From IMG/VR virus record IMGVR_UViG_3300014913_000073, positions 1 to 25,042 of that record: 25,042 nucleotides of DNA. One strand, 5' to 3'. The notes below the pieces were generated by a model. That model was given only the letters and a program-made list of their open reading frames with translations. It was not told the DNA's origin and searched no databases. The stretch is from a virus. Below are positions 14,407 through 25,042 of this stretch, piece by piece. How positions within the stretch are numbered: position 1 is the first letter of the stretch; each line of letters starts with the position of its first letter. A program made the translations under genes and the position numbers.

Positions 14407-17400
14407 ATGGATATAGAGAGGATCAAGAGAAGCCCTTTGTATTCAGTAGACAAAAAAATTGTAATCGGCAGAGGCAAAAAGCCTGCCGATTTTTTGTTTA
14501 TAGGAGAGGCAAGCGGCAAAACAGAAAACCGGATAGGCAAGCCTTTTGTAGGAAGAAGCGGAGAGCTTCTTAACTGGTGGATACAGGAGGCCGGAATTAG
14601 CAGTTTTTATATTTCTAATGCTGTTCCTCTTATGCCTGTTGACGCTATGGGGCAGATAAGGAAGCCTACTCTGGAGGAGATAGAATATTTTAAGTTTTTT
14701 GTTGACGAGATATTTGAAGAAGTCAAGCCAAGGTTTGTGGTTGCTATTGGCGATACTGCGTGTTTATCTCTTTTTGGGAAACCTATCAGAGAATGCTTAG
14801 GGAAAGTATTAAAGGTTAAAGGCGCGAGGGCGATAGCTGTCTATCATCCTGCTTATTTTTTAAGAAGAGGGACAGAGGAAGAAGGGAAAAGAAAGTTTCT
14901 TGAGGCGTTTGAACTTTTAAAGAGCGAAACAAGCCAGGAGTATTTTCCATTGCATTTACACACTGATTTTTCAGTAGGGGATGCTGTTGCAAGCGTTAGC
15001 GAGTATGTTAAGGTTTTTACGGTTATGGGGTTTCGAGGCGGAGGAATTTGCGAGCATGGGAATTTGAGTTCAACGTGGCAGTGGCAGAAGAAACTCAGGG
15101 AAGTGGACAAGAAGCCTCTTTTTGGCGTGGAGATGTATGTATTTGATGGAGAAAGCTATGATGATTTGAGGCCGAAATCGAAGGATAAGAACGAAAGAAG
15201 GATTTACAGGCATTTGTGTTTGTATGCGAAGAATGAGGTTGGCTGGAAGAATTTGCTTAAACTTAATTGGCTGTCGGTTGTTAAAGGTTTTTATTATAAG
15301 CCGAGAGTTTTGTTAAAAGATGTTTTTGAGAACAGCAAAGGCTTGATAGCGACGAGTGCCTGCACGAGTGGATTTTTGATTTATTATCTTATGAGAAATC
15401 AGGTAGAGGAAGCGTTTAGATACGCGGAGATGTTTAAGAAAGTATTTGGTTCTGATTTTTATATTGAAATTATGCCTCATTATGAAATTAAAGAGTATTG
15501 TGCGGTTGTTCCTGCGTTGATTAAGATGGCGGATAGTTTGGATGTAAAAATGGTAGTTAGTTTAGACGCTCATTATGTTCATAAGGATGAGAAGGATTTG
15601 CATAGATGTTTGCTGGCGATTGACAGGAAGAAGAAGTTTAAGGATGAGCCTGGCTATACAGGGAATACATATTTTTTGATGAGCAGCGAGGAGTTAAGGG
15701 AAAATTTGAATAAAGTATGCAGCGAGCTTAATGTTGATGAATTATTTCGGAATAGTTTTGAAATAGCAGATAAGTGCAATCTGGTTCTTAAACCATTTGA
15801 ACCGGAAGAAATTTTGCCTTCATTTGGAGGAGAGAAAAAACTTATTGAGATTTTTAATGACAGGTTTGAGAGGATGGAGATAAGGAAAGGCAAAGAGTAT
15901 GTTAAGAGAGCAAAGATTGAGATTGACAGAATTTGCCGGAAAAAATTTGCGGATTATTTTTTGCTTGTAGATAGGATACTTGATGAGGCAAGAAAGATGG
16001 ATATAAGGATTGGCGTAGGAAGAGGGTCAGTAGGAGGTAGTTTGGTGGGATATGTTATGGGGTTTCATATTGCTGACCCTATTAAATATGATTTGATTTT
16101 TGACAGGTTTATTTCAGAGGCAAGAAAAGACCTTCCTGATATAGATTTGGATTTTCAGGATACCAAAAGAGAACAATTGATTGCAAGGCTGGTTGAGATA
16201 TTTGGCAATGAGAATGTCTGCAAGATAGTTACCTTTTCGCAGTTGCTGGGGAGAAGTGCGGTCAGGGATGTAGGAAGGATACTTGATGTTGACAGAAAGG
16301 AATATGAGCAGCTGGCTTCAAAGATTTACAGGGATATGAATCTTGAGTGGGAGTTTAGAGATGGGAGGCTTAAATTTTATATAAGAAGTTTCCCTAAGAA
16401 ATTGGTTAGTTTTGTTTTAGGATGTCAGGGGATAAAGAGGCATAGGGGTGAGCATGCTGCTGGTGTTGTGTTGACGAAGAAACCTTTGTTTGAATATATA
16501 CCGGTTTTAAGGGTAAGAAATAATATTGTGAGTGCGTGGGATAAGGATGATTTAGCGGAGATGGGTTTGATTAAGATTGATATATTGGGGTTGAAGGTTC
16601 TGGATATTATAGATAAGGTTGTGAAAATGACAGGGGCGAAACTGCCTAAGGATTTTAATGATAAGAATGTTTATGAAAATATTATAAAGCAGGGGAACAC
16701 TTATGGCGTGTTTATGCTTGAAACGGAAGGAATGAGAAATTTTGTTAAAAACCTTAAACCTGATAATTTTTTTGAATTGATAGATGCTAATGCCTTATTC
16801 AGGCCGGGTCCGTTGAGAAGCGGATTGGCAGATAAGTATGTGGCAAGGAAGTTTGGCAAAGAAAGGATACGGTATTTTTGCGATGCAATGAAAAAACTGA
16901 CTGAGGCAACAAGGGGGATAATAATTTATCAGGAAACAGTTATGAGAATAATGCATGATATTGGAGGGTTTAGCTGGGAAGAGGCGGAGAAGGTTAGAAA
17001 AGTGGTGGCCAAAAGTAAAGGCGAACAGGAAATAGAGAAATTAAGAGGCAAGTTTATTAAAGGCGCACTTGAAAGAGGAATTGACAAGATACAGGCAGAT
17101 AAAGTTTTTGATGATTTAAAGAGGTTTGGAGCATACGGCTTTAATAGGTCGCATAGCTGTTTGTATGCCATATTGGCTTATTATATGGCGTGGCTTAAGT
17201 ATTATTATCCGCTTGAGTTTTATAAAGTTATTCTGGATAGAGAAACAGATGTAACGATGAAGGAAAAATACCTTGCGGAAGCAGTTAAGCTTGGAGTTAA
17301 GGTTGTTCGGCCGCATATAAACAAGTCAAAAGAAGGTTGGACGCTTGACAAGGAAAAGAAAGAGCTTATTGCGGGGTTTTCAAGTATAAAAGGATTGGGC

Positions 17401-17679
17401 GAAAAGTATGTTGCAAAACTTGTTGAAGGACAGCCTTATAAGAGCATTGATGATGTGGTTAAGGTGGTTAATAAGGCGGTTGTGCGTTGTTTGATTAAGG
17501 CAGGGGCAATTGATGAATTTATTCCTTCAAGGAAGTGGGCTCTTGAAAACATAGACAGTTTAATGAAGGGGCTGACTATGTTTGAGATGTCTAATGAGAA
17601 AGAGAAAGAGTTTTTTGATGCAGAGAAGAGGCGGATTGAAAGGGAAATTCTTGAAGGTTTTGGATTAGTTTTGAAGTGA
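14407..17679 (+). CDS. dnaE: Uracil-DNA-glycosylase-like domain fused to DnaE-type DNA polymerase III alpha
   Basis: This 1090-residue protein starts with a domain (about 1-178) of the family 4/5 uracil-DNA glycosylase fold: GEASG (33-37), GKPFVGRSGELLN (44-56), SNAVPLMP (70-77) and the catalytic-type YHPAYFLR (146-153). The four Fe-S cysteines of family 4 are missing. A PHP domain follows, LHLHTDFS with H183/H185, EHGN (216-219) and LDAHYVH (386-392), suggesting possible 3'-5' exonuclease activity. The polymerase core has GRGSVGGSL (538-546), PDIDLDF with D580/D582, and IDILGLKVL with D725. Helix-hairpin-helix segments lie near 1000-1045. The usual C-terminal OB and tau-binding parts are missing. 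AAGGAGAAAG sets ATG 14407. It is the replicative polymerase of this phage. Confidence 0.93.
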   Translation: MDIERIKRSPLYSVDKKIVIGRGKKPADFLFIGEASGKTENRIGKPFVGRSGELLNWWIQEAGISSFYISNAVPLMPVDAMGQIRKPTLEEIEYFKFFVDEIFEEVKPRFVVAIGDTACLSLFGKPIRECLGKVLKVKGARAIAVYHPAYFLRRGTEEEGKRKFLEAFELLKSETSQEYFPLHLHTDFSVGDAVASVSEYVKVFTVMGFRGGGICEHGNLSSTWQWQKKLREVDKKPLFGVEMYVFDGESYDDLRPKSKDKNERRIYRHLCLYAKNEVGWKNLLKLNWLSVVKGFYYKPRVLLKDVFENSKGLIATSACTSGFLIYYLMRNQVEEAFRYAEMFKKVFGSDFYIEIMPHYEIKEYCAVVPALIKMADSLDVKMVVSLDAHYVHKDEKDLHRCLLAIDRKKKFKDEPGYTGNTYFLMSSEELRENLNKVCSELNVDELFRNSFEIADKCNLVLKPFEPEEILPSFGGEKKLIEIFNDRFERMEIRKGKEYVKRAKIEIDRICRKKFADYFLLVDRILDEARKMDIRIGVGRGSVGGSLVGYVMGFHIADPIKYDLIFDRFISEARKDLPDIDLDFQDTKREQLIARLVEIFGNENVCKIVTFSQLLGRSAVRDVGRILDVDRKEYEQLASKIYRDMNLEWEFRDGRLKFYIRSFPKKLVSFVLGCQGIKRHRGEHAAGVVLTKKPLFEYIPVLRVRNNIVSAWDKDDLAEMGLIKIDILGLKVLDIIDKVVKMTGAKLPKDFNDKNVYENIIKQGNTYGVFMLETEGMRNFVKNLKPDNFFELIDANALFRPGPLRSGLADKYVARKFGKERIRYFCDAMKKLTEATRGIIIYQETVMRIMHDIGGFSWEEAEKVRKVVAKSKGEQEIEKLRGKFIKGALERGIDKIQADKVFDDLKRFGAYGFNRSHSCLYAILAYYMAWLKYYYPLEFYKVILDRETDVTMKEKYLAEAVKLGVKVVRPHINKSKEGWTLDKEKKELIAGFSSIKGLGEKYVAKLVEGQPYKSIDDVVKVVNKAVVRCLIKAGAIDEFIPSRKWALENIDSLMKGLTMFEMSNEKEKEFFDAEKRRIEREILEGFGLVLK

Positions 17680-18537: not shown

Positions 18538-19446
18538 ATGCCTTTAGATGTCAAAAAATTTAGGGAACAGCAGGAAAGCAGGAATGAAAGAAAGAATTAT
18601 ATTAAGTTAAAGCCGGGTGAAAACTACATACGGTTTTTGCCTCATACATTGAAGTATTTTACGGAAGAGGTTACAGAGGTAGCATATTCTTATTATATTC
18701 ATTTCAATGTTGGCCCCGAAGGAGCTGAGCAGGCAGTGGTTTGCCCGAAAACAAAGGATATTAAGGCAAGGTGTCCAGTTTGCGAGGCAGTAGCAGTAAT
18801 GTCAAAGTCAGAGGATTTGCATGAGCAGGCTAAGGCAGAAAAGATGGGCAGAAGAAAGAGGTATCTGTTTAATATTTTGTGTTTGGACAGCGAGGAGGAA
18901 GTTAAGAAAGGGATACAGATACTTGAGTGCGGCCCTCAAATTTATCATGGGTTTATTCAGTGGATCAATGAAAAGTGGGGAGATCCTTTAGATTTGACGA
19001 ATGGCAGGAATATGACTATTCATATGATTGTTCCGCCCTCAGGGAATAAGTTCAGGACAGAGTATCGGGTAGAACCTGATCCGAAAACCTCGAGTGTTGT
19101 AAACTATTTGCCTAAAGATTGGAAAGAGCAGATTAAAAGGCTGGAAGAGCAGGTGCCACCAGTTCTGCCTTATGCAGAGATTAAGAAGATTTTAGAAGGA
19201 GAGATTGACGAGCCAGTTGTTGAAGAAGAGGCAAGTAACGATGTTCAACAGGAAGTTGTTAGTGGTGATGTTCAAGTAGGGCCTTCTGCTAAGATTTTGA
19301 ATGAGGCTTCTCCTTCAGCTGGATCCGGTCCAACGGAGAAGAAAAAACCTGATTGCTTTGGGGTTCTTTTTTCTGCAAGGGTAGGTTCAAAGTGTGAGAA
19401 TTGCCCTTGGAGGGATGAGTGTAAAGTAGAATTTTTAGGGGGATAA
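18538..19446 (+). CDS. gp32-like single-stranded DNA-binding protein
   Basis: The 302-residue product matches the T4 gp32 type. The zinc ligands H55, C69, C79 and C82 have almost the same spacing as T4 gp32 (H-x12-C-x9-C-x2-C; here H-x13-C-x9-C-x2-C). The basic/aromatic core includes YIKLKPGENYIRFLP at the start and ILECGPQIYHGFIQWI around 128-143. A flexible acidic region (EGEIDEPVVEEEAS, about 221-234) corresponds to the partner-binding tail. Unusually, the chain continues into a C-terminal Cys4 cluster (CFGVLF ... CENCPWRDEC). It coats ssDNA for replication and recombination. AAAGGAGGAGGAG gives a strong start. Confidence 0.88.
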   Translation: MPLDVKKFREQQESRNERKNYIKLKPGENYIRFLPHTLKYFTEEVTEVAYSYYIHFNVGPEGAEQAVVCPKTKDIKARCPVCEAVAVMSKSEDLHEQAKAEKMGRRKRYLFNILCLDSEEEVKKGIQILECGPQIYHGFIQWINEKWGDPLDLTNGRNMTIHMIVPPSGNKFRTEYRVEPDPKTSSVVNYLPKDWKEQIKRLEEQVPPVLPYAEIKKILEGEIDEPVVEEEASNDVQQEVVSGDVQVGPSAKILNEASPSAGSGPTEKKKPDCFGVLFSARVGSKCENCPWRDECKVEFLGG

Positions 19447-19836: not shown

Positions 19837-19859
19837 GTTTATTGAAGAGGGGGTGTGAG

Positions 19860-20600
19860 ATGGGGTTTTTGAAGTTAACCCCTGTGTGGGGCAAGCATAG
19901 ATATAAGTATATTTTGGACAAGGTTCTTTTGAAAGTGTTGGGCAGCAACTACGCTAAGGTTAAAGGGTATTATGTCGCTGGCGGGGCAGTAAGAAGCGCT
20001 TTTGCTGGCGAAAAGATAAAGGATTTAGATATTTACTTTCTTTCAACATCGGACTGGGAGAAGAGGAAAGAGTTTGCTAATTTCAAGAATATGAAGTTTC
20101 TTTTCGGGACAGAGTTTGCTGAGACTTACGAGACCGAAGGGGTTCCTGTTCAGTTTATTAAGAGGTTTTACGGCGAGCCAGAAAGAGTGATGAGCGAGTT
20201 TGATTTTACTATTTCAATGGCTGCTTATTTGCCGGAAAGAGAGGAATTTTGCCTGGGGGAAGATTTTTTGCATCATTTGTGTGAGAGAAGGTTAGTGTTT
20301 AACGAAAATACAAGGTTTCCTGTTTCAAGCCTTTGGCGGGTGAAGAAGTTTTTGAAGAGAGGGTATAAAATTGGTGCCAGGGATATAATTGTTTTGGCAT
20401 TGGCGGTTCACAATCTTAAAATTGAAACTTTTCGGGATTTAAAAGAGCAGCTTGACGGGATTGACACCTGGCTTTTGAAAGATATTACTGACAAGATGAT
20501 TGAGGATAAAGGAGAGGCTGAGTATGATTTGGTTGAGTTTATAGCGTATATTGACGAAAAAATAGCAGATTTGTGGGGTAGAGTAGAAGAGGAGGATTAA
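19860..20600 (+). CDS. Pol-beta superfamily nucleotidyltransferase (PAP/CCA-adding head-like)
   Basis: From ATG 19860 (246 residues), GYYVAGGAVRSAF (about 36-48) followed by KDLDIYFL (54-61) is the GG-x-R plus DxD signature of the poly(A) polymerase/CCA-adding enzyme head. D55 and D57 would bind metal. The rest of the fold, including FDFTISM (about 118-124), is consistent. Many phages carry such a gene next to recombination genes; its substrate is unknown. A TTG at 19842 is an alternative start, but GAGGGGG lies between it and the ATG. It is followed one base after its stop by the recombinase gene. Confidence 0.82.
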   Translation: MGFLKLTPVWGKHRYKYILDKVLLKVLGSNYAKVKGYYVAGGAVRSAFAGEKIKDLDIYFLSTSDWEKRKEFANFKNMKFLFGTEFAETYETEGVPVQFIKRFYGEPERVMSEFDFTISMAAYLPEREEFCLGEDFLHHLCERRLVFNENTRFPVSSLWRVKKFLKRGYKIGARDIIVLALAVHNLKIETFRDLKEQLDGIDTWLLKDITDKMIEDKGEAEYDLVEFIAYIDEKIADLWGRVEEED

Positions 20601-20601
20601 G

Positions 20602-21579
20602 ATGGCCGGCATTAAAGAATTGCTGGAAGATGTTTTAAAGGAAGCGGAAGGAGTATCACTTGGTATTGACAAAAATATTAACGATTATCTTGATACGGGC
20701 AATCTGGCTTTGAATAAGATAATAAGCGATGATTATTTTAAAGGTTATCCTTTAGGCAGGATTGTGGAGCTTTACGGAGACCCCTCAACCGGGAAGTCAA
20801 TGTTGATTTATCAAGCAATGGCTAATTGGCAAAAGAAGTATGAGGAGAAGGCTGTTTGTATATTGGATGATACCGAGGATGTGTTTACAGAGTTTGTGGC
20901 AAGAATAGTTGGGCTTGATGGCTCGAAGGTTTTAGTGGTGAGTTCGGAAACTGTTGAAGACCATTTTGAAACAGTGTTTTTGGGGGCTAAGAAGAAGCAA
21001 AGCCTTGTTGATAGGATTTTGTCAAGGAATAAAGATTTTAAGATTATCGTGGCGCTGGACAGCGTGGCGCATTTGTCGACCAGGCATGAGAAAGAAGTCG
21101 GGTTAGATAAGAGCGATTTGAGTAAGGCTAAGCAGATTAGGGCAGGTTTAAGGCTGGCGCAGAAGACAGTTAGCTCTAATAACATTTTATATTTGATTTC
21201 AAACCATGTGTATGCTCCGTTGTCTGCGATACGACCGACAAAGACTACTCCTGGCGGTAAGGCTATACCCTTTTTGAGTTCTGTGAGGATTGAACTGGAA
21301 TTGAAACAAAAGATAGGAACACAAGGAGTTGTTAGTAAAGCTTTTGTCAAAAAGAACAAGGTTGCCCAGCCATTCAGGAGTTGTGAGTTATATATAGATT
21401 TTAAGACTGGCTTAGATAGAGTGTCAGGGGTAGAGAGTTATCTGGTTGAAGATGGGTTGCTTAAAGACAGGGCAAGTTGGTGGGAGCTTCCTGATGGCAA
21501 GAAAATTCGTAAAGGAGAGTTAGATGAAGATGTAGTAATGAGTTTATTTAAGAAGAGCGAAAAAAAGAATGGCAAGTGA
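20602..21579 (+). CDS. uvsX: RecA/UvsX-type recombinase
   Basis: A 325-residue RecA-fold ATPase: Walker A GDPSTGKS (59-66), the catalytic-glutamate region LDDTED, Walker B IIVALDSVAHL (about 148-158), YLISNHVY with NH in place of RecA's NQ (as in T4 UvsX), and TTPGGKAIPFLSSVRIEL typical of the RecA/UvsX L2-C region. It forms filaments on ssDNA for strand exchange, assisted by the gp32-like protein upstream. UvsX is favoured over RecA because of the NH(T/V)Y motif and the T4-like neighbours. ATG 20602 begins just after the previous stop. Confidence 0.9.
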   Translation: MAGIKELLEDVLKEAEGVSLGIDKNINDYLDTGNLALNKIISDDYFKGYPLGRIVELYGDPSTGKSMLIYQAMANWQKKYEEKAVCILDDTEDVFTEFVARIVGLDGSKVLVVSSETVEDHFETVFLGAKKKQSLVDRILSRNKDFKIIVALDSVAHLSTRHEKEVGLDKSDLSKAKQIRAGLRLAQKTVSSNNILYLISNHVYAPLSAIRPTKTTPGGKAIPFLSSVRIELELKQKIGTQGVVSKAFVKKNKVAQPFRSCELYIDFKTGLDRVSGVESYLVEDGLLKDRASWWELPDGKKIRKGELDEDVVMSLFKKSEKKNGK

Positions 21580-22393: not shown

Positions 22394-22882
22394 ATGGAAG
22401 GAACATTAAAGCTTGAAATTATTATCAGGAAGAATGAACAGAAGAAGGAAGCTGTTAATCTGGTGAAGAATATGCTTCGGGATTATATGATTTATGAAAC
22501 TGATGACAAGATTGCTTTTAATTTTGGCAATAATTGGGAAGGGACAAAAGATGGCACTTTTCAGGAGATTTGGAAGATGTTTAATAGGGATATGTATATT
22601 TCTTTGGCTTATTATACGATAGATGATGATGTTTATGTTACGGATTTTGAAGGCAATCCTGTTGAGCATTATGAGGTTGTTATTGATGACAGAAGGATGA
22701 TTAAGTATTTGAAAAGAAAGATGAGGATTATAAAACTTTTTGATAAGGAAAAGGAGATTTTTGAAGCGAAGGCTTATCTTTTAGACCTTAAAAATACAAC
22801 TGGAGTTATAGTTAAGGTTCTTGATGTGTTTAGCGTTGGGGTTGAAAGCGGCTTGAGGTTGTGTGATTTTATCAAAAATTAA
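22394..22882 (+). CDS. Hypothetical protein (162 aa)
   Basis: Not recognised. A G-rich ribosome binding site (GGGGGG) precedes ATG 22394. The chain alternates strands and helices: an N-terminal LKLEIIIRKNEQ strand, a helix (EAVNLVKNMLRDYMI), a DDDVYVTDFEGNP turn, and IDDRRMIKYLKRKMRIIKLF, ending in a strand-rich VIVKVLDVFSVG. This could be a small alpha/beta domain. It is the gene directly upstream of the nuclease-ATPase fusion and is co-oriented, so a role in DNA metabolism is possible but unproven. Confidence 0.6.
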   Translation: MEGTLKLEIIIRKNEQKKEAVNLVKNMLRDYMIYETDDKIAFNFGNNWEGTKDGTFQEIWKMFNRDMYISLAYYTIDDDVYVTDFEGNPVEHYEVVIDDRRMIKYLKRKMRIIKLFDKEKEIFEAKAYLLDLKNTTGVIVKVLDVFSVGVESGLRLCDFIKN

Positions 22883-22894
22883 AGGAGAATTGAG

Positions 22895-25042
22895 ATGAAA
22901 GTTTTGTTATTTAGTGATTTTCATTTTCATACGTGGTCAAAGTGGGGTGTGAACAGCGACGGTAAGTGGAAGAGGTTTGTTGAGCAGGAAGAAGCGTTAG
23001 AGCAGATAGAAAATATTATTCAAACAGAGAGAATTGAAAAAGTTATTTTTGGGGGAGATTGGTTTCATAAATACGGAGAAATACCTGTTGAGTGTGTTAA
23101 TAGGAGTTTAAGGTTTTTTGAGAAGTTGAAAAAATGGGGCGTTAAGTTTTATTTGACTTCGGGCGAACATGATGTGGCAAGAAAGGAAAGTCCGGATTGG
23201 GTGCATATAGCTTTATACGATTTGAAGGGCGGCATAGAAACAGGAATAAAGCTTGTTAATGTTTATGATGATATTGATGTAGAGAAAATAAAAGATTATG
23301 AGTTTGTTGTTTTACATAAAACTCCTTTAATGAAACCTTGGGCGGAATGGATTAAGGATTGCGTAGATTGGGGGAAACTGGCAAAGCAGAATAAGTGGGT
23401 ATTTTTTGGGCATATCCATTTCCCGGCGAGGTTAGCGAGAAATTGTGTGGTAATGGGTTCGGTTATGGACCTTAATTTTGATGGTAATACGGCTGAGAAA
23501 GGAGTTTATGTTGTAGAAAAGTATGATATTAAGTTTGTTCCTATTAAAGCGCCTAAATTTAGGATTGTTAAGAAGGCTTCGGAGATAAAAGATGATTACA
23601 ATTATTACAAAATTGTTGAAGCGGTAGATAGCAGCGAAGTTTTAAGTTCTAAAGTTGTCGCTGCGAGGAAGCAGGGAGAAGTTTATGAGGAGAAGCTTAA
23701 AGGCGGGAGTTTAGAAGATATTGCAAAAGAGTGGCTTGATATAAGTGGCATTGATGATAAAGAAAAGTATTTTCGGGCAATAAAAGATGAGTTAGTTGAA
23801 GGTAGAAGAGTGAAAGTTTATTCTGGCAGGCTGACGAAAGTGGAGATAAGAGATTTTATGAGTTTTGCCAATGTGCAATTTTCCCTTCAGAAAGGGGTTA
23901 ATTTTATTTATGGCTGGGATGAGCGCGGAGAAAGCAACGGTGTTGGCAAAAGCAGTTTGATGGAAGCTGTTTATTGGTGTTTGTTTGGCAGGACGACTAA
24001 GTGGCTTACAGGGAAAGATGTTGTAAGAGATGGGCAGAAAGAGGCGTGTGTGAGGTTAAAGTTTGACGACGGGATTGAGATAGAAAGGACGACTTCTAAA
24101 GGAGTGAGTGTTTATTCTTTAAATTTGGTTTATAAGGAACTTACGGAAGGCCTGAGAAAGCCTGATAGGGATAAGTATGTTGAGACTTATTTGGGGATAG
24201 ATAATATGTTTTTTTTGGCGAGTTGTTATTTTGCTCAGGAAAATTTGGTTATGCTGACCACGATGGGAGCAGCGCCAAGGACGGCTTTAGTGGCTGATTT
24301 GTTAGGGTTTCAGAGGTTTGATGATTTATATACTTTATGTTTGCAGAAGAAGGGAGAATGGGAAAAGAGGCATGCTGAAGTAAGGGATAATATTATTTCA
24401 CAGGAGACAGTTATAAAGACAAAGAAAGAGGCGCTTGAAGAGTGGGATGGGCTTATTGAGGATTCGGATAGGAAAATTAAGGAGTTAGGGGAACATGCAG
24501 AGAAAGTTAAATTTGAAATAAGCAAACTTAACCAAGAGTTAGGGGAATTGAGGTTGGTGGAAATAGATTTAAGCGGCTTTGAGAAATCGTTAGTTGAGCT
24601 AAGAGAAATGATTGAAGGCGTCTCTGGCAAAGAGGAGCAGCTTTTAAACGAGAAATTGCAGCTTTCCCGGAAAGCGGAGGAGTTGAAATCGCAGATGAGG
24701 GTCCTGGACACGGAGATTGTTTATCGGGATAAAGAGCGAGAAAAACTGAAGAAAGAGATAGAGAGTTTGAAAAATTTGAATTTTGGGGAGAGGTGCGATA
24801 AGTGCGGGGCGGTAATAAGCGAGGACAATGTTAAGGCATTTGTTAAAGAGAAGCAGGAAAGGATTAAGGAAATTGAAGGGCAGATTGGCGAGTTTGTTGA
24901 GAAAAAGAAAGAGGTTGTTAAAGAATTTGATGAAGCAAATAGTGAGTTGAGAAAAAACGGGGAAAGACAGGCAAAACTTAAAGAAAAGAAGAAGTTTTTG
25001 CAGGAAGAGGAAAAAACGACAAAATTGAAGTTAGAAGAAGAA
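22895..25042 (+). CDS. SbcD/Mre11 nuclease fused to SbcC/Rad50 ATPase, 3' end outside the window
   Basis: One unbroken frame of 716 codons reaches the last base. Residues 1-300 are an SbcD/Mre11 (T4 gp47-like) phosphoesterase: DFH (8-10), GGDWFH (53-58), GEHD (90-93; usually GNHD), H141, and GHIH (172-175). Residues 310-716 are the start of SbcC/Rad50 (T4 gp46-like): KVEIRDFMSF, Walker A GESNGVGKSS (345-354), FAQENL as the Q-loop, then coiled coil with a zinc hook C634-x2-C637. Signature motif and Walker B lie beyond the window. The pair processes DNA ends for recombination. AAAGGAGAATTGAG sets ATG 22895. I followed codons across the junction near residue 300 and found no stop or shift. Confidence 0.92.
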   Translation, partial: MKVLLFSDFHFHTWSKWGVNSDGKWKRFVEQEEALEQIENIIQTERIEKVIFGGDWFHKYGEIPVECVNRSLRFFEKLKKWGVKFYLTSGEHDVARKESPDWVHIALYDLKGGIETGIKLVNVYDDIDVEKIKDYEFVVLHKTPLMKPWAEWIKDCVDWGKLAKQNKWVFFGHIHFPARLARNCVVMGSVMDLNFDGNTAEKGVYVVEKYDIKFVPIKAPKFRIVKKASEIKDDYNYYKIVEAVDSSEVLSSKVVAARKQGEVYEEKLKGGSLEDIAKEWLDISGIDDKEKYFRAIKDELVEGRRVKVYSGRLTKVEIRDFMSFANVQFSLQKGVNFIYGWDERGESNGVGKSSLMEAVYWCLFGRTTKWLTGKDVVRDGQKEACVRLKFDDGIEIERTTSKGVSVYSLNLVYKELTEGLRKPDRDKYVETYLGIDNMFFLASCYFAQENLVMLTTMGAAPRTALVADLLGFQRFDDLYTLCLQKKGEWEKRHAEVRDNIISQETVIKTKKEALEEWDGLIEDSDRKIKELGEHAEKVKFEISKLNQELGELRLVEIDLSGFEKSLVELREMIEGVSGKEEQLLNEKLQLSRKAEELKSQMRVLDTEIVYRDKEREKLKKEIESLKNLNFGERCDKCGAVISEDNVKAFVKEKQERIKEIEGQIGEFVEKKKEVVKEFDEANSELRKNGERQAKLKEKKKFLQEEEKTTKLKLEEE

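Follow-up and report, generated by a model that had tools for sequence, protein, structure and literature searches.

A single-chain Mre11-Rad50 (SbcDC) gene among the replication and recombination genes of an uncultured phage

Mre11-Rad50 (SbcCD) processes DNA breaks with a nuclease and an ATP-driven part. Proteins that carry both parts in one chain were described in 2011 from Mimivirus (R555), Bacillus phage 0305phi8-36, bacteria, plasmids and eukaryotes (Yoshida et al. 2011, PMC3175470), and several separate origins of such fusions in viruses were suggested (PMC3175470). On SbcD-SbcC fusions in phages, this was the one directly relevant paper in a literature search that covered subscription journals thinly. 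Other relatives consist of two components. E. coli SbcCD adopts a closed configuration with ATP and a cutting state with DNA and ADP (PMC7260605), and phage T4 gp46/gp47 is thought to resect DNA, exposing 3' single strands that are then covered by gp32, so that resection feeds both gp32 and UvsX (PMC3016280). The same two enzymes are encoded next to replication genes in T4 and, as SbcD and SbcC, in the Herelleviridae (Staphylococcus and Listeria phages).

The window analysed here is an entire IMG/VR virus record of 25,042 bases and represents a partial phage genome. Its last open reading frame (22895..25042, plus strand, as are all window features given below in the form start..end) extends over 716 codons, meets no stop and is cut by the contig end, where the 3' end of the gene is lost. 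Over this interval, 65 and 83 stops interrupt the remaining two plus-strand frames. Shuffling the same bases 500 times gave open frames of at most 129 codons, which places the observed frame far above chance. A ribosome-binding-like AAAGGAG, read from the sequence, lies at 22881..22887, seven bases 5' of the ATG at 22895. Within this single frame an Mre11-like domain comes first and a Rad50-like domain second, as judged by motifs and by Pfam: Metallophos matches residues 1-175 (E 9e-8) and AAA_23 residues 315-549 (E 1e-16), both passing the curated cut-off. The corresponding PHROG matches are phrog_100 for the SbcD-like half (E 5e-24) and phrog_77 for the SbcC-like half (E 3e-35). An earlier note on this DNA had described a continuous frame leading from nuclease motifs through a Rad50 Walker A to a CxxC hook, and the open codons, motifs and Pfam matches bear this out. 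Its name for the gene, a single-chain Mre11-Rad50 (SbcDC), is correct and is supported by the motifs, the Pfam matches, complete fused relatives and the confidently modelled fold of the closest one.

The second half of the chain begins with a Rad50/SbcC N-terminal ATPase lobe (23831..24319; Pfam AAA_23), which carries the Walker A sequence N348-G-V-G-K352-S-S (NGVGKSS, residues 348-354) and a Q-loop glutamine, Q448, and which matches Rad50 of M. jannaschii (E 5e-12). An outgoing coiled coil (24320..24793), assigned from long helices in the structural model of the relative L013 and from the alignment, leads to a zinc-hook motif located by its position, C634-D-K-C637 (24794..24805), whose two cysteines are invariant in the fused and split relatives aligned. 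Only the beginning of a returning coiled coil (24806..25042, from the sequence and its alignment with L013) precedes the contig end, and the Rad50 signature and Walker B would fall past this point, outside the window.

No relatives were found when viral contigs were scanned with the window SbcDC protein alone, and bacterial and archaeal genomes, when scanned, likewise yielded no relative and so pointed to no host. Relatives in viral contigs were recovered by alignment-based scans, the first yielding L013 and the second L094, L095 and L097. The L013 protein is 35% identical to the window protein over residues 2-714, and L013, L094 and L095 together span 32-36% identity. These three are complete single chains (943, 987 and 985 amino acids, respectively), all with an LSGGEK signature and a Walker B motif, whereas L097 encodes a fused chain that is cut by its own contig end. 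Because the three relatives are complete, the absence of the Rad50 C-lobe from the window is, judging from these sequences, an end-of-contig effect, and the complete enzyme is seen in the relatives only. In 145 other loci the SbcD and SbcC halves occupy separate frames, so the comparison is able to tell fused from split arrangements. Full-length fused proteins have also been deposited: Rhizobium phage RHph_TM61 encodes a single-chain SbcDC of 959 amino acids (QIG77826.1), and further examples come from Escherichia, Acinetobacter, Vibrio, Cobetia and Thermus phages. The search for homologous fusions that had been proposed as a check therefore found them among contigs, deposited phage proteins and published examples (PMC3175470).

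A single-chain SbcDC is not new as a class. Such proteins are present in many phages and in giant viruses, and the window holds a further member. Like the fusions of Mimivirus and phage 0305phi8-36, the window protein is a viral single chain with the nuclease first and the ATPase and coiled coil second, and it shares with Mimivirus R555 a His in place of the third Asp of GDxxD. It differs from both in belonging to a different phage lineage and in an Asn-to-Glu change in nuclease motif III. The deposited Rhizobium-to-Thermus phage fusions are, like three of the window's relatives, complete single chains with a CxxC hook, signature and Walker B, but they are 17-21% identical to the window protein and form a separate tree group. 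The Herelleviridae and T4 enzymes show 22-26% identity to the nuclease half and 19-26% to the ATPase half, yet are encoded by two separate genes where the window has one continuous frame. Finally, E. coli SbcCD and T. maritima Mre11-Rad50 share the Rad50 head fold with the L013 model, but these cellular enzymes are built from two separate chains rather than one.

We placed the protein in an unrooted tree of 45 sequences, in which the split rows chosen depend on the search patterns. L013, L094 and L095 form a group with the window (100/100), and one branch (98/92) has all split pairs on one side and all fused rows on the other. On these sequences, one fusion event could be enough to explain the tree, and a constraint that makes a single clade of the five nearest fused rows was not rejected (p-AU 0.29). 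Since both halves resemble split phage genes, an origin of this fusion separate from that of the Rhizobium-type fusion had been considered; the tree does not show it.

The L013 model (mean pLDDT 85.3, pTM 0.54) presents, in order, a nuclease part, three short helices (276-302), a Rad50 head, a coiled coil and a hook. Its pTM is modest, and thus the placement of the nuclease relative to the head is not fixed by the model. Structure comparison (VIA-align) covered residues 313-943 of this model, and the nuclease half is assigned from Pfam, PHROG and motifs. The segment compared matches T. maritima Rad50 (3tho; Z 31.0, 342 residues at 3.4 A) and E. coli SbcC in its cutting state (6s85; Z 30.4, 334 residues at 4.7 A). 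Among the best whole-chain matches in a viral structure library are a Listeria phage protein of 1009 residues and giant-virus proteins, including those of Tupanvirus and Catovirus.

The domains, motifs, chain continuity and neighbouring genes are direct observations, and the explanation that best accounts for them, to which we assign a probability of roughly 0.88, is that the gene encodes a phage single-chain SbcDC nuclease that acts as an ATP-gated dimer in end processing of the T4 gp46/gp47 kind. From these features we infer dimerisation, activity and a role in recombination for the window protein. Two SbcDC chains would pair at three places: the nuclease domains, the ATPase heads and the zinc hooks. 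As in E. coli SbcCD, the nuclease would stay closed while the Rad50 heads carry ATP and would open onto a DNA end once the ATP is hydrolysed. The enzyme would then make 3' single-stranded ends for loading of the phage's own single-strand DNA binding protein (SSB) and RecA/UvsX-like protein, and these products would serve recombination-dependent replication and repair, the same job as that of T4 gp46/gp47. This last role we infer from the neighbouring genes and from homology.

One residue in the nuclease part (22895..23569, residues ~1-225; Pfam Metallophos and motifs) invites a different reading. The motifs of this part are D8-x-H10, G54-D55, G90-E-H92-D93, H141 and G172-H173-I-H175, so the calcineurin-type DxH, GD, H141 and GHxH elements are all in place, and the motif columns are conserved across the 45-sequence alignment with the exception of the motif III Asn. 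Motif III, GNH[D/E] in its usual form, reads GEHD in the window. This change might weaken the metal site, if the sequence is any guide, and one could then imagine that the nuclease of this single-chain SbcDC is crippled or changed and that the protein mainly tethers or signals DNA ends. Consistent with this idea, only the window among the 45 sequences has Glu (42 N, 2 Q and 1 E), and its codon, GAA, is two changes from an Asn codon and hence no single simple base error. However, the remaining metal-binding positions are retained, Glu is also able to bind metal, and Gln occupies the position in two other fused phage proteins. We consider a crippled nuclease improbable; the Glu is a point change within an otherwise intact domain, and family membership stands.

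An SbcDC nuclease that works in recombination also fits the surroundings of the gene, which sits among genes for a helicase, primase, polymerase, SSB and RecA. The SSB (18538..19446; PHROG 1192, E 2e-25), which has homologues in L013 and L097, and the RecA/UvsX-like recombinase (20602..21579; PHROG 97, E 2e-49; Pfam RecA, E 1e-23) are likely functional partners of the enzyme. The order helicase, UDG-polymerase, SSB, RecA, SbcDC is partly repeated in L013 and L097. Mre11-Rad50-like and SMC-like complexes also act both in attacking foreign DNA and in defending against it (PMC10586767), and the protein could by analogy be a counter-defence or host-DNA-degrading nuclease rather than a recombination enzyme. 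The location of the gene in a partly conserved replication and recombination cluster makes this highly unlikely.

Directly 5' of the SbcDC gene lies a gene for a 162-amino-acid protein (22394..22882) that is kept in L013 (3434-3949), L094 (4504-4998) and L095 (4349-4831), where the counterparts of ~160 amino acids are 36-40% identical to it (E 2e-30 to 1e-35). Such a gene is directly upstream of SbcDC in four of the five related contigs; L097 has a RecA gene there. The window protein matches no Pfam family above the cut-off, and its model, made from four sequences, is poor (mean pLDDT 52). It is conceivable, though doubtful, that this lineage runs a dedicated end-processing unit composed of the single-chain SbcDC, whose metal site is changed in the window, and the ~160-amino-acid protein as a regulator or anchor, in a role like that of Nbs1 or some other accessory factor.

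Several other genes of the window deserve mention in their own right. The gene at 14407-17679 encodes a uracil-DNA glycosylase (UDG) domain (PF03167, residues 21-170, E 4e-21) fused ahead of a DNA polymerase III alpha with PHP, DNA_pol3_alpha, finger and HHH_6 domains. None of 50,697 phages reached 80% coverage of the joined UDG and PHP stretch, and a viral contig scan with the window's DnaE returned no match. The four contigs with the closest SbcDC fusions instead have UDG joined to a family A polymerase, and the same glycosylase domain therefore seems to occur on two unrelated polymerases across related gene clusters. Within the window, the UDG-DnaE fusion is more unusual than the SbcDC fusion. 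On the L095 contig, an insert of ~345 residues that has a LAGLIDADG domain and looks like an intein splits the first UDG motif (GQC...CGNSPG) of the UDG-PolA gene (L174, 304-3399). A DUF932 protein (PF06067, E 3e-66) is encoded early in the contig (557-1528), and between SSB and RecA lies a gene (19842-20600) for a nucleotidyltransferase-like protein with a weak PolyA_pol head match, related to phage families PHROGs 4400, 18122 and 27100.

The junction between the two halves was examined through the L013 model and the alignment. The model helices (276-287, 292-295 and 298-302) map to window residues ~273-284 and 291-300, a low-confidence stretch follows at model residues 305-309, and the Rad50 match starts at window residue 312-315. 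Ordinary Mre11 grips Rad50 via a helix-loop-helix domain at the equivalent place (PMC7260605). For this reason, the region of residues ~265-310, which the earlier note took for a short helical linker, is on the model most simply seen as the ordinary Rad50-binding domain of Mre11 (helix-loop-helix at 23711..23794, residues ~273-300). The model does show helices there, but what the fusion itself contributes appears to be a join of ~12 residues (301-312; 23795..23830). The note's further point, that fusion fixes a 1:1 stoichiometry, adds little since the complex of separate chains is already M2R2 (PMC7260605). Across 23750-23900 (residues ~286-335), the window and its four closest relatives share one reading frame and align with short gaps only, which makes a frameshift or lost stop very unlikely. 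Although two adjacent genes, some with a one-base overlap, are the usual phage arrangement, we reject the notion that neighbouring sbcD and sbcC genes were joined by a missed stop or frameshift in assembly or sequencing, because four other contigs, three of them with complete chains, keep the same open frame across the junction.

Understanding of the Mre11-Rad50 complex is otherwise unchanged by the window's single-chain SbcDC. These contigs enlarge the known class by a few conserved single-chain enzymes of uncultured phages, of which three are complete. Half-assembled complexes are impossible with a fused chain, which may therefore be a handy reagent for structural work on Mre11-Rad50.
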